Source: an uncultured Cytophagales bacterium (GTDB taxonomy: Bacteria; Bacteroidota; Bacteroidia; Cytophagales; Cyclobacteriaceae). From it: 64,000 nucleotides of DNA. Both the position numbers and the translations under genes were made by a program. Location: the NCBI GenBank assembly GCA_913057175.1, contig CAJXNP010000003.1:124001-188000 (forward strand). The letters run 5' to 3'. Below are positions 8,056 to 56,015 of this stretch, piece by piece. The notes beneath the pieces were generated by a model. It was not told the DNA's origin, made no database searches, and worked only from the letters and a program-made list of their open reading frames with translations. Every line of letters begins with the position of its first letter. Position 1 is the stretch's first letter.

Positions 8056-8365
8056 CACGAACTCTCAAACATTCTCATTCAAACAGGCTTTCATCCCAAC
8101 AGAATTGTTTCCCAAACAAAAAACGTTAAGCTATCTTCTGAATATTCACATTTCATATCAACCATAGGAAGACACCTGTCTTTAAATTGTTCATTCAAAA
8201 AAGTCAAAAGTTATAATTTTTTGAATTTGTTAAACAAAAAGTTATTAATTTCGTGATAAGATTAAAGAATTTCATCAACAGTCACATTTTTAAAAAAATA
8301 GTCTATCGAGCAAAGTTTACGATTTTAAAAACAACACTTTTTGGATAATAAAAGACACTTTGCTC
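8056..8365. other. Intergenic region before the HA-repeat gene
   Basis: About 310 bases of AT-rich sequence; an open frame from 8044 to 8256 is not supported because it starts inside the terminator. GAGCAAAGT at 8308-8316 is the exact reverse complement of ACTTTGCTC at 8357-8365, which touches the ATG of the next gene. The leader RNA could therefore fold so that the start region is paired. Confidence 0.4.
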
Positions 8366-10102
8366 ATGAAATTATCAAAAGATTTCAATGATACATGGAA
8401 CCAATATTATGACAAACTAGTCAGGTTCTATAAGAAACATGGACATCACAATGTGCCATCTGACAACAACGATCACAATAAATTACTGGAATGGGTTCTG
8501 ATACAAAAGAAGTCGAAACACCAGCTTCCCAAACAATATATTGAAAAGCTTTCTGCCATTGACTTTGATTTCTCTATAAATCAGAAAGCTCGTTGGTACG
8601 AGAAATTTAAAGAGCTGGAACAGTTTTTTGTCAAACATGGTCACGCGCATGTACCAGCAACAGATCAACGTTACAAGACCCTTCACCATTGGTTGATGAC
8701 TCAGGTCAGAAATCAGGATAATCTGGACGAACTGCAAAAAAGGAAACTCGATTCCCTGGCGATATTCTGGGACATAAAATCCAGTAGAGACTGGAAATGG
8801 CAGGAAATGTACCTTCAATTGAAGGAGTTTCATCGTAATAATGGTCATTCAAGTGTCCCTCAAAAATGGGAAGAAAATCCCAGGCTTGGCATATGGGTAA
8901 GTGTTCAACGTCGCAGATTATCGGAGGGAAACATGAAAAAGGAACGTAAAACCAGGTTGGATGCCCTAAATTTTGTATGGGATTTTGGCGATGTATATGA
9001 GAAGCAATGGAAAGATAAATATCAAAAGCTGATTGACTTTAAAAAAGAACATGGCCATTGCAAAGTCCCGTTAACACACAAAGATCAGCAACTGGCAGGA
9101 TGGGTGGATCGACAGCGAACTCACAAAACAAAGGGGAAATTATCCGAAGACCGCATAAGGAAACTTGATCAAATTGGTTTTATCTGGGATTGTACTGTTT
9201 TGGAAGAAGAATCCTGGGAGAAAAAATTCAGTGAACTTCTGGCTTATAAAAAGCAATATGGGGACTGCCAGGTGCCCGTGAACTGGAAGAGAAATCGTTC
9301 ATTGGGAATATGGGTAAGCACCCAAAGGACGCTGGAGAAGAATGGAAAGTTAGACCCTCTGAAAAAAAGCAGGCTTAAAAAAATTGGATTCGTCTGGGGC
9401 AAAGAGGCCTGGAAGCTGCAATTGAAGAAATACGATCAGCAATGGGAAAAGAATTTCCGCAAGCTAAAAGAATATAAAAGGAAATATGGAACATTTCAGG
9501 TTTCATTAACCATCGACAGGTCATTGGAAAAATGGACTTGCACACAGAGACAACACAAAAAAATCGGCAAATTATCTAACCACAAGACCAAAAAGCTTGA
9601 TCAAATAGGTTTTCCCTGGGATTTGCATGAATCGTATTGGATGAGTATGTATCATCAGCTTCTCCGATTCAGAAATAAATATGGCCATGCGAAGGTACCC
9701 TGGCGTTGGAAAGAAAATCCCCAGTTGGGTCTTTGGGTCTCCAGAACCCGGCTAAAACAATATGAATTGACCAGGACCCAAATCGAACTACTGAATAAAA
9801 TAGATTTCGAATGGCACGTCATTCATAAAAATCCTGTTCCGTGGGCAAAGATGTTTGACCGATTGAAAGAATTTAAAAATGAGTATGGGCATACCAGGGT
9901 TCCGGTAACCTGGAAGAAAGACAAAAAACTGGGGAAATGGGTATCGCGTATGCGGTCCGATCAGGATCAATTGAACCCGGAAAGAAAAATACTACTTGAT
10001 ATGATCGGATTTGACTGGCAAAAAGGAAAGAGAATAATTATGAAAAAAGAGGATCATTTTGGAGTGGAACTAATGAGGTATAATGTACCTCATCAGGCTT
10101 GA
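8366..10102 (+). CDS. Protein made of eight helicase-associated (HA) domain repeats, no helicase
   Basis: A 578-residue soluble, very basic protein starting at the ATG at 8366 (an in-frame TTG lies 6 bases upstream). Nearly the whole length is eight tandem copies of about 63-70 residues. Each begins with W-x3-Y/F-x2-L, continues with F/Y-x5-G-H-x2-V-P, then L-G-x-W-V-x2-Q-R, and ends with K-L-x2-I-G-F-x-W. Repeat starts are near residues 10, 72, 136, 204, 272, 350, 415 and 480. This is the helicase-associated domain (PF03457 type), normally found behind helicase cores, but no ATPase motif is present. A nucleic-acid-binding solenoid is a reasonable guess. The gene is isolated and ends with a small hairpin, ATGAGGTA/TACCTCAT (10073-10093), inside its last codons. 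Confidence 0.85.
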   Translation: MKLSKDFNDTWNQYYDKLVRFYKKHGHHNVPSDNNDHNKLLEWVLIQKKSKHQLPKQYIEKLSAIDFDFSINQKARWYEKFKELEQFFVKHGHAHVPATDQRYKTLHHWLMTQVRNQDNLDELQKRKLDSLAIFWDIKSSRDWKWQEMYLQLKEFHRNNGHSSVPQKWEENPRLGIWVSVQRRRLSEGNMKKERKTRLDALNFVWDFGDVYEKQWKDKYQKLIDFKKEHGHCKVPLTHKDQQLAGWVDRQRTHKTKGKLSEDRIRKLDQIGFIWDCTVLEEESWEKKFSELLAYKKQYGDCQVPVNWKRNRSLGIWVSTQRTLEKNGKLDPLKKSRLKKIGFVWGKEAWKLQLKKYDQQWEKNFRKLKEYKRKYGTFQVSLTIDRSLEKWTCTQRQHKKIGKLSNHKTKKLDQIGFPWDLHESYWMSMYHQLLRFRNKYGHAKVPWRWKENPQLGLWVSRTRLKQYELTRTQIELLNKIDFEWHVIHKNPVPWAKMFDRLKEFKNEYGHTRVPVTWKKDKKLGKWVSRMRSDQDQLNPERKILLDMIGFDWQKGKRIIMKKEDHFGVELMRYNVPHQA

Positions 10103-53928: not shown

Positions 53929-54459
53929 CTAAGTGTGCTCCAAATCACATAGAATTAAAATCAAATAATATTCACATAATATTAAATCATTGTAAACAGT
54001 TGAAATATTAGTATTTAGTAGGTATTCTTCATTAAATATTTTTTCATTTGAAAAGAAAAAATTATCAATTACGTTTTTAAAGTTATTATTCGCTTCATCA
54101 TATTGTATATCTAGACTATCATAAAAATTTTTTTCAATTTCTACACTTAAAATATTCATCACCGAAACTAATTCTGAATTGGTATGACAGCCTTTAACCA
54201 AAGAATAATTTTCATTATAACCACCTCCAATTTCTATTATATTTTGAGATGTAGAATCAATTATATCAATTATTTTCAAGTGGCTTTCATGTCCTTCAGA
54301 GTTTTCAAGACATGTGCTTCTTAAATAACTTTTTAATTCAAAATTTTTAAAGCAAGAATTAATTGGACATTGATATAAATATTCATCTTTTTTTACATTA
54401 CATGATATAATTAGAAAGAATAAGAAAAAGTAATAAATAAAATTTCTCATGGATAACAT
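53929..54459 (-). CDS. Small lipoprotein of unknown function, immunity-like position
   Basis: A 176-residue lipoprotein (lipobox LIISC, Cys20) with several Cys in the mature part (CPINSC, STCLEN, KGCHTN). Its C-terminal region NFFFSNEKIFNEEYLLNTNIS aligns with HNFFSNEGSLNRKKMLTSNIE of the lipoprotein at 56113, so the two are distant paralogues. It is very AT-rich. It starts 25 bases after a start-less C-terminal fragment on the same strand. Immunity protein is a guess from position only. Confidence 0.55.
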   Translation of the reverse strand: MLSMRNFIYYFFLFFLIISCNVKKDEYLYQCPINSCFKNFELKSYLRSTCLENSEGHESHLKIIDIIDSTSQNIIEIGGGYNENYSLVKGCHTNSELVSVMNILSVEIEKNFYDSLDIQYDEANNNFKNVIDNFFFSNEKIFNEEYLLNTNISTVYNDLILCEYYLILILCDLEHT

Positions 54460-54484
54460 TGATTTTATAAATTAATTTAAACTC

Positions 54485-54676
54485 CTAATATTTATTAAGT
54501 CGAATACTATCTTCTTTTGTTGCTACATCGATCAAAAATGTTCCATCATCTCTATACCGTATTAAATAATTTGTTTTTCCTCCATTCGGATAATATCTAT
54601 TAATAATATGCTCATGTGTCTGTTTTGGTTTGTCATTTCCCCCAAGCTGTTTGGAGTGTTCCGCAGGACACTTCAA
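54485..54676 (-). pseudogene. Start-less C-terminal protein fragment 3 (orphan-tip candidate)
   Basis: An open frame with no ATG (first codon TTG), whose first about 12 codons come from repeat B. The protein-like part starts right after the repeat (GGNDKPKQTHEHIIN) and continues with NRYYPNGGKTNYLIRYRDDG and FLIDVATKEDS to a stop at 54485. It looks like the end of a larger protein, detached from its N-terminus. The lipoprotein gene follows 25 bases later. Confidence 0.45.
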
Positions 54677-54740
54677 ACTTCAAATGAAAATTGAAGTCTG
54701 GACTTGTAACTATTCTATAAATTCCACCTCGATCAATCCT
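54641..54740. repeat. Direct repeat B, copy 1: REP hairpin plus the 3' tail of a RAYT gene
   Basis: 100 bases, about 96% identical to 55294-55394. It includes a REP-type hairpin GTTTGGAGTGTTCC (54649-54662) / GGACACTTCAAAC (54666-54678) with loop GCA, one wobble and one bulged T. On the minus strand the repeat also encodes LIEVEFIE and a stop, the exact C-terminus of the transposase at 55364, here without the rest of the gene. Confidence 0.8.
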
Positions 54741-54758
54741 TGCTTTCCCTGAGGGAAA

Positions 54759-55187
54759 TCATTTCTTCATGGGGTATCCTAAGTCATCATGCAAGTCAAA
54801 TTCAAAAATACTTGAATCACTTAAATTAGTTTTTTGGATAGTTACTTTAAATGAATTGCTAAACTTTATCAATGAGTCCCCATTTTCCAAAACATCATCC
54901 AACATAAGACCTTGATTATGTTCATACCCAACAACTAATCTCCTCTTTCTTCCATCCAACAAAGTTAAATACACCTGATGTGGGTTGTTTCTGAAAATTT
55001 GCGGATCACCTTGATTAATATCAGCAATACTAGTAAAAAGACTCTCTTCAAACGATATAAGTGGATATTCTTCTCTTAAACTATCAAGCTCTTTGTTTTC
55101 ACTTTTGATACGAAACACTGCAATTACAATTATCATACAGAAAAATAAAACTATTAAAATTAAGTTGTAAATTTTTGGGAATTTCAT
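54759..55187 (-). CDS. Small membrane-anchored protein, immunity-like position
   Basis: A 142-residue protein starting at the ATG at 55187; an upstream in-frame codon at 55232 lies in the preceding fragment. One N-terminal hydrophobic helix (YNLILIVLFFCMIIVIAVF), then a soluble domain with NNPHQVYLTLLDGRKRRLVV and LDDVLENGDSLIKFSNSFKV. Small membrane proteins of this kind are often seen behind toxin genes in Bacteroidota, but the family is not firmly identified. It lies exactly between the two copies of repeat B, 2 bases after a start-less fragment. Confidence 0.6.
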   Translation of the reverse strand: MKFPKIYNLILIVLFFCMIIVIAVFRIKSENKELDSLREEYPLISFEESLFTSIADINQGDPQIFRNNPHQVYLTLLDGRKRRLVVGYEHNQGLMLDDVLENGDSLIKFSNSFKVTIQKTNLSDSSIFEFDLHDDLGYPMKK

Positions 55188-55189
55188 AT

Positions 55190-55309
55190 TTACTTTTTTA
55201 TTTCTCCAATATTGTAACCACCTCCTAACCAAGGTATTGCAGATAAACCTAAACCTATTTGAATAGATTTAGGTGTTACTTTTTGCTCATCAACCCAAGC
55301 TGTTTGGAG
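55190..55309 (-). pseudogene. Start-less C-terminal protein fragment 2 (orphan-tip candidate)
   Basis: An open frame leaving repeat B with TAWVDEQKVTPKSIQIGLGL and ending SAIPWLGGGYNIGEIKK before a stop at 55190-55192, 2 bases from the next ATG. No start codon exists within the unit and the frame reads back through the repeat to a stop. It resembles the detached end of a larger secreted protein; it is glycine-rich and hydrophobic in the middle. Confidence 0.4.
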
Positions 55310-55394
55310 GGTTCCGCAGGACACTTCAAACTTCAAATGAAAATTGAAGTCTGTGACTTGTTACTATTCTATAAATTCCACCTCAATCAATCCT
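55294..55394. repeat. Direct repeat B, copy 2: REP hairpin at the 3' end of the intact RAYT
   Basis: 101 bases, near-identical to 54641-54740. Here it includes the last codons and stop of the complete transposase gene. Hairpin GTTTGGAGGGTTCC (55302-55315) / GGACACTTCAAAC (55319-55331), with one more mismatch than copy 1. Confidence 0.8.
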
Positions 55395-55915
55395 AGCTCT
55401 CCGCAGTAATTTTGCGCACTTGAATAATTGTAATCTTCTGGTTTACTCACGATACCATTCTGTACAGGATTATTATGAATATATTCCAATTTCTCCTGCA
55501 TAAAATGATTTGTAACTAATTCCTTCGGTTGATTGTTTTGACGCCAGAACTGGTAATTTTTATTTTTCTTATTTCTTTTTCCCGCAGACTTAAAAATCCA
55601 TAACATCCAGTTTCTTCTACTTTCCTGTTTATTTTCTTCAATTGCTTTGATTATTTTGCCTGAAGTGAACTTTTTAAAATCCCTTAATATATCCGATAGA
55701 TTATAACCTTCCCTTGCTGCAATGATCAAATGAAGATGATTACTCATTAAACACCATGCATAAAGGATCAATCCTTTTTCATTCTGACAGTATTTCAGAC
55801 TTTCAATAACAATTTCTACATATTCCTTTCTGGTAGATGCATCTACCCATTCGACAACTGCAAAAGTGATATAGTAGATCCCATCTTTATTTCTGATTTT
55901 GTAGCCTTGGTCCAT
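55364..55915 (-). CDS. REP-associated tyrosine transposase (RAYT, IS200-like Y1 transposase)
   Basis: A 183-residue HUH endonuclease. The metal-binding pair is in CLMSNHLHLIIAA (His-Leu-His). The catalytic Tyr is in LEYIHNNPVQNGIV, and the family end motif is YNYSSAQNY. The N-terminus (GIYYITFAVVEWVD) is the usual first strand. RAYTs cut and join single-stranded REP sequences. The gene is intact, and its own 3' end is part of repeat B, which also contains the REP-like hairpin, so the cognate substrate is visible. Confidence 0.9.
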   Translation of the reverse strand: MDQGYKIRNKDGIYYITFAVVEWVDASTRKEYVEIVIESLKYCQNEKGLILYAWCLMSNHLHLIIAAREGYNLSDILRDFKKFTSGKIIKAIEENKQESRRNWMLWIFKSAGKRNKKNKNYQFWRQNNQPKELVTNHFMQEKLEYIHNNPVQNGIVSKPEDYNYSSAQNYCGELGLIEVEFIE

Positions 55916-56015
55916 GCTGTTATAAAAAAATGTAATCCTTGTTTAAAAAAGCGAAACTAATTAAAAAACTATTTCCACACGTATTAATCAACGCAACTAT
56001 TTCTTCTCATAGACC

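Follow-up and report, generated by a model that had tools for sequence, protein, structure and literature searches.

What does a protein do that is built from end to end of helicase-associated (HA) domains and has no helicase attached to them? The question is posed by a gene of an uncultured bacterium of the family Cyclobacteriaceae, contained in a stretch of 64,000 nucleotides that was analysed as a whole (hereafter the window; Table 1). An original prediction, made from the letters of this stretch, had described the gene product as a stand-alone array of eight HA domains and suggested a nucleic-acid-binding solenoid.

Table 1. The HA-array gene of the window and its parts (bit scores are those of separate matches to PF03457).
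Feature	Position in window	Strand	Remarks
CDS of the stand-alone HA-array protein	8366..10102	+	578 aa from ATG; same frame open as 8360-10102 from an alternative in-frame TTG at 8360
HA repeat 1	8390..8566	+	51.2 bits
HA repeat 2	8585..8758	+	38.8 bits, lowest of the eight
HA repeat 3	8795..8974	+	70.3 bits
HA repeat 4	8999..9181	+	78.8 bits, highest of the eight
HA repeat 5	9206..9391	+	71.1 bits
HA repeat 6	9434..9613	+	54.1 bits
HA repeat 7	9626..9808	+	56.8 bits
HA repeat 8	9836..10012	+	61.4 bits
C-terminal tail, residues 554-578	10025..10099	+	pLDDT < 50; probably disordered

The composition of the protein can be settled plainly. The Pfam profile for HA (PF03457) matches it in eight stretches (405.6 bits, E = 3.7e-124), and in a second search each of the eight separate matches lies above the gathering score of 28.4 bits. 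Beyond HA, no Pfam family reaches its own cut-off and no NCBIfam family reaches its cut-off, the ATPase core of DEAD/ResIII and helicase C type being absent in both collections, while PADLOC models of anti-phage defence and PHROGs return nothing at E values up to 0.01. Membership in the PF03457 family is thus secure and membership among the HA-tailed helicases fails; the eight HA domains that were seen to make up the whole protein are real rather than a chance pattern, as is the lack of an ATPase motif. The strongly basic character is likewise borne out (pI 9.88, with K+R at 20.9% against D+E at 12.4%, computed on the 580-aa frame). What had been called near-regular copies are repeats of comparable length, but they are mutually divergent in sequence and not close copies of one another.

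An immediate suspicion is that such a protein might be a remnant without function, an HA tail left behind by a helicase that has decayed or by a mobile element. It is invited by the patchy distribution of HA domains, which occur in 39 of 390 genomes and 24 of 84 genera of the source's bacterial family, by the broken or split HA genes of some relatives (loci L064 and L073), and by the location of one close relative on a plasmid. The orthologues speak otherwise. Four proteins, from Splendidivirga corallicola (L036 = L042; 44% identity), Pontibacter pamirensis (L043; 42%), genome G490 (L050; 42%) and a 235-kb plasmid of Rufibacter tibetensis typed as mobilizable (WP_062546108.1, L033; 41%), match the window protein over nearly its entire length. 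Like it, they have eight HA domains in the same order and no other domain-sized part (565–572 aa), and in each of the five the first HA domain comes no more than about 25 aa into the protein; they differ from the window gene in their 41–44% identity to its product, and no neighbour shared with it was seen. The five represent as many genera, with pairwise identities of 41–56%. When each repeat of one protein is scored against each repeat of another, the native order ranks first among the 40,320 possible orders in all ten pairs, although not every single repeat scores best with its own counterpart: for the window protein this is so in 8, 5, 4 and 6 of 8 rows with the four orthologues. A further protein with eight HA domains (L048) is not co-linear with these, its native order ranking between 5,826 and 29,633; its gene lies a few kilobases from type I-B Cas5 and Cas7 genes.

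Repeat order and repeat identity have thus been retained between these genera, which speaks against decay and equally against recent tandem expansion, and the recurrence of this eight-repeat arrangement in four relatives from other genera argues that the window protein is not a broken helicase tail. Together with the intact 578-aa frame, the absence of PF12508 and PF12696 from the genome and the remoteness of the nearest integrase gene on the contig (detailed below), this co-linear conservation seems largely to refute the idea of a leftover, which can be regarded as highly improbable. A helicase split off by a frameshift, the circumstance named in advance as fatal to the original prediction, was looked for: no core is present in the protein, in the ten scanned neighbours or in the 358-bp gap upstream, where a single ORF reaches 60 aa or more, with 70 aa, and the four co-linear orthologues are equally all-HA. 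A more distant relative, L073, does have a helicase split in this manner. The window gene is real, intact, conserved and uncharacterised.

How unusual is it for HA domains to stand alone? From 33 of the 39 HA-bearing genomes of the family, 37 loci including the window were classified among the matches listed, so that weaker matches in these 33 may be missing; the other six genomes (G480, G508, G529, G623, G709 and G785) have only matches below the listed ones. Stand-alone arrays, with 3, 4, 5, 7, 8 or 9 HA domains, account for 31 of the 37, a class assigned by HA coverage, with Pfam scans of the window, L051, L057, L058, L062 and L066, and including near-duplicates from sister species (L058/L059, L060/L061) and from a single genus (L044–L047). 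The notion that the stand-alone state is exceptional is therefore not upheld in this family. Nor does the premise hold there that HA domains usually come after a helicase core, though it fares better elsewhere, 11 of the best 20 plasmid hits being annotated as DEAD/DEAH helicases. The survey of repeat number in relatives that had been called for thus gives a range of three to nine for stand-alone arrays, with eight in each of the four co-linear orthologues.

The six remaining loci of the family are varied. L038 and L052 encode 1649-aa proteins with 13 HA domains, the former matching restriction-type PADLOC models and showing helicase motifs by eye; L064 is a broken HA gene in two fragments; L068 joins HA to a PLD nuclease and L074 to a LAGLIDADG homing endonuclease (Pfam). 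At L073 (4937-8868) an ORF resembling a helicase core overlaps a seven-HA ORF in a different frame, a split helicase gene or a frameshift, the core being restriction-helicase-like as judged by eye. HA is rarer in a phylum-wide sample, where 5 of 395 genomes have it; the sample holds four HA genomes from outside the family, one with a stand-alone array (L076) and three with fusions, namely to PLD (L075), to a helicase core (L077) and to sigma70 region 4 (L078). The HA-tailed SF2 helicases L034 (Aneurinibacillus), L038 and L077 share the domain with the window protein, with 8, 13 and 5 copies in a row, and differ from it in their restriction-type helicase core (seen by Pfam in L077 and by PADLOC restriction models in L034 and L038). 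On a Mycobacterium plasmid, a gene annotated as an HA protein would, with a length of 620 aa, be a further stand-alone case. Viral contigs scanned with the queries P0001 and A1 hold no relative, a phage collection has one match on an unannotated 7.2-kb faecal scaffold, and in the genome contigs scanned the single-protein query found no locus and query A1 two. Since HA domains are fused also to LAGLIDADG and PLD-type nucleases and to a protein with sigma70 region 4, "helicase associated" is too narrow a name for them.

Public records label the stand-alone proteins just as "helicase associated domain-containing protein". In the open-licence PMC literature, a search that leaves subscription papers aside, no title on stand-alone HA arrays and no experiment on an HA protein of the window type was found, and in the text that the search returned "PF03457" appears in the context of an alfalfa gene family only. 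The HA2 of PMC12787238, so far as its retrieved text goes, is another domain than HA, and the retrieved table line of PMC7020563 concerns an SNF2-type domain irrelevant to HA.

Structure prediction bears on whether the array forms a solenoid. The full-length AlphaFold2 model, built from ten sequences, has three helices per repeat, with a mean pLDDT of 82.8 and a pTM of 0.34, so that the domains are predicted well and the overall shape is uncertain; a model of repeats 3–5, built from 60 aligned triplets, reaches a pLDDT of 96.2 and a pTM of 0.75. Because adjacent repeats adopt a defined arrangement in the latter, a solenoid is plausible over a short range, and the original proposal may stand to that extent, but the shape of the whole is not fixed. 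The only clear solved relative in sequence is 2KTA (E = 7.8e-9), the HA domain of a "putative helicase" of Bacteroides vulgatus, which also comes top for the full model in Foldseek (probability 0.99, TMt 0.67, E = 1.9) and in VIA (Z 7.6, rmsd 5.8 over 74; next row Z 5.0), with no other convincing match among solved structures. Its three-helix fold is seen in the repeats of both models, though the three-repeat model returns neither 2KTA nor any other convincing match. In a viral fold library, 10 matches have E values of 0.001 or lower; most are giant-virus proteins that bear the name helicase, joined by a phage protein and a giant-virus protein whose names refer to the HA domain. A profile match to 7XNJ is weak (E = 0.068). 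No DNA- or RNA-bound structure is prominent in the fold searches of either model.

The absence of functional neighbours that had been claimed from the sequence was confirmed. Ten neighbouring proteins were scanned, nine with a family match and one without, and none is a helicase or nuclease: on the same strand upstream lie an AI-2E transporter, an AraC-type regulator, a DUF5367 protein and an NmrA-type reductase, on the opposite strand downstream an ABC exporter, a TetR regulator and an AraC/PfpI regulator, and a porin is also among the family matches. All HA matches of the 6.6-Mb genome (98.7% complete) fall inside the window gene, so that there is no HA-tailed helicase elsewhere in it. These facts weigh against the view that the protein is a targeting or accessory subunit that assists, in trans, a helicase or nuclease whose gene lies elsewhere. 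That such enzymes carry HA arrays at their C-terminus in relatives, and that L073 distributes a helicase core and an HA array over two overlapping reading frames, would suit a subunit of this kind; given the lack of a helicase among the ten scanned neighbours and of an HA-tailed helicase in the genome, and since no neighbour was seen to be common to the eight-repeat loci other than ORFs inside the HA genes themselves (the L050 contig being 6.8 kb long), it can be considered improbable.

A role as component of a mobile element in the source genome was also rejected. Neither PF12508 (TraM) nor PF12696 (coupling protein) is found in this genome, while the same searches were positive in 13 of 23 genomes and in 4 of 14 control genomes, respectively; the nearest PF00589 tyrosine integrase on its contig (C3) is about 210 kb away, and the window contains no tRNA gene. 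The gene is accordingly taken as an orphan chromosomal gene. Comparison of neighbours and checks of inverted repeats yielded no target site and no operon partner. A promoter pattern of Bacteroidota type matches the window at 2 sites, where 3.67 would be expected, and neither site precedes the HA gene; promoter-like sites number 6 against 7.9 expected, and terminator-like sites 3 against 1.7, all within the HA gene on the opposite strand. A perfect 9-bp inverted repeat occupies window positions 8308-8316 and 8357-8365, its second arm abutting the ATG; it is matched by 22 of 1000 base shuffles, and none as long is present at the four eight-repeat orthologues. Elsewhere in the window, G+C falls to 0.296 in positions 54001-56000, compared with 0.35–0.45 in the remaining 2-kb blocks.

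Several relatives occupy recognisable settings of their own. At seven loci (L049, L053, L057 and L060–L063), a stand-alone gene with four or five HA domains closes a Bacteroidota tra cluster on its downstream side; these represent six genomes of four genera and every stand-alone four- or five-HA locus except L051. All seven have a TraO-like gene upstream of the HA gene, that of L062 being a weak match (E = 0.0089; one copy scanned), and in five of the seven a small, related gene of bPH type lies between the two. At four of these loci (G481:C2, G506:C10, G540:C3 and G532:C23) the contig stretch with the HA gene also carries a TraM homologue above the Pfam cut-off; L063 has TraK and TraN homologues and no TraM hit, and L057 and L061, the latter a 4-kb contig, show a partial cluster. 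The NCBIfam matches for TraK, TraN and TraM of L062, TraK and TraN of L063, and TraM of L053 and L060 are below the cut-offs, whereas TraM and DUF4138 of L062 are above those of Pfam. Among the seven is a plasmid of Tunicatimonas pelagia, typed by MOB-suite as non-mobilizable, on which an annotated traM is followed by the HA gene. These tra-linked products resemble the window protein as stand-alone basic HA arrays, but have fewer repeats and are set among conjugation genes, and the two compared (L049 and L062) show no co-linear register with it.

Two other settings were noticed. The nine-HA genes of L044 and L045 precede a tra cluster of traE/F/G type by 3.6 and 0.5 kb (DUF4134, DUF4133 and TraG were checked in L045), and those of L046 and L047, of the same genus, are not beside one. 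Six of the 14 stand-alone three-HA loci (L040, L054, L056, L066, L067 and L070) have a common chromosomal setting, marked by genes for a guanylate kinase, a cytidylyltransferase-like (nadD-like) protein and a sigma70-type protein, the families having been checked in L066. The window gene is found in none of the three settings, and the searches of its genome for PF12508 and PF12696 show no linked conjugation genes such as define the tra-linked group.

The basic character, by comparison, is general: the pI lies between 9.48 and 10.23 in all 13 stand-alone HA proteins computed. Mean net charge over the aligned columns is +5.0 in stand-alone repeats (n = 168, including both L064 fragments) against +2.4 in those of eight fused or split proteins (n = 45), and K or R occupies repeat position 38, after W-V-x-x-Q, in 92% of 213 repeats and position 50 in 65% of 207; near-duplicates (L042, L052, L059 and L061) were dropped from these statistics and close relatives remain, so that the repeats are not independent. 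Among the eight-repeat orthologues, conservation is stronger in the GHxxVP loop and at positions 36, 38 and 50 than at most of the outward-looking positions of helix 1, with exposure read from the sequence pattern. These features point to a candidate contact face formed by the loop and the starts of helices 2 and 3. A protein–protein scaffold that binds no nucleic acid would offer another explanation for a conserved helical array, as helical repeat solenoids frequently bind proteins and many positions here are near-invariant aromatic or hydrophobic ones; but these near-invariant W/L/F/G positions look like the core of the domain, with the remainder rich in K/R, and such a scaffold seems quite unlikely.

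The reading that the evidence suggests best is that of a stand-alone nucleic-acid-binding repeat protein, which may well be a binder of double-stranded DNA in particular, the case for it being about evenly poised. In this model, the eight three-helix modules would form a positively charged stack, semi-rigid from one module to the next, that could lie along nucleic acid. Its likely contact face would comprise the GHxxVP loop, helix 2 in its first half (W-V-x-x-Q-R) and a basic residue close to where helix 3 begins. The modules would not be interchangeable; that each has kept its own sequence and place across genera fits the idea that each touches a defined part of a long target. As there is neither an enzyme core nor a partner gene, the protein would act by occupancy, perhaps as a DNA-bound regulator or an architectural factor.

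Charge by itself separates DNA neither from RNA nor from acidic protein partners. PUF and PPR proteins are helical solenoids that bind RNA, and a basic helical repeat protein without a catalytic domain might be put to similar use on mRNA or structured RNA. DNA is favoured here because the fusion partners of HA domains (L068, L074, L075, L077 and L078), whether PLD or LAGLIDADG nucleases, restriction-type helicases or the sigma-like protein, are all DNA-directed, an analogy of the guilt-by-association kind; RNA solenoids, moreover, do not come top in the fold searches, which excludes nothing. An RNA-binding role thus appears unlikely, if less so than a scaffold or a subunit acting in trans.

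A parallel might be struck between a double-stranded-DNA-binding HA array and TAL effectors, PUF and PPR proteins, modular helical repeat proteins that bind nucleic acid. A bolder and decidedly tentative proposal is that stand-alone HA arrays are unrecognised modular, sequence-reading DNA binders, chromosomal on the one hand and fixed in Bacteroidota conjugative elements on the other, in which the individually conserved repeats would each recognise part of a long site.

For HA proteins without a helicase, the current public name points to the wrong biology. Such proteins are numerous in the source's lineage, and at least one set of them, the eight-repeat orthologues, is conserved repeat by repeat, while the tra-linked cousins suggest an additional part of conjugative elements. 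The window protein itself is a member of a family that databases already list, and its function would be new if shown: were DNA to be bound through individually conserved repeats, these arrays would represent a new natural modular binder.
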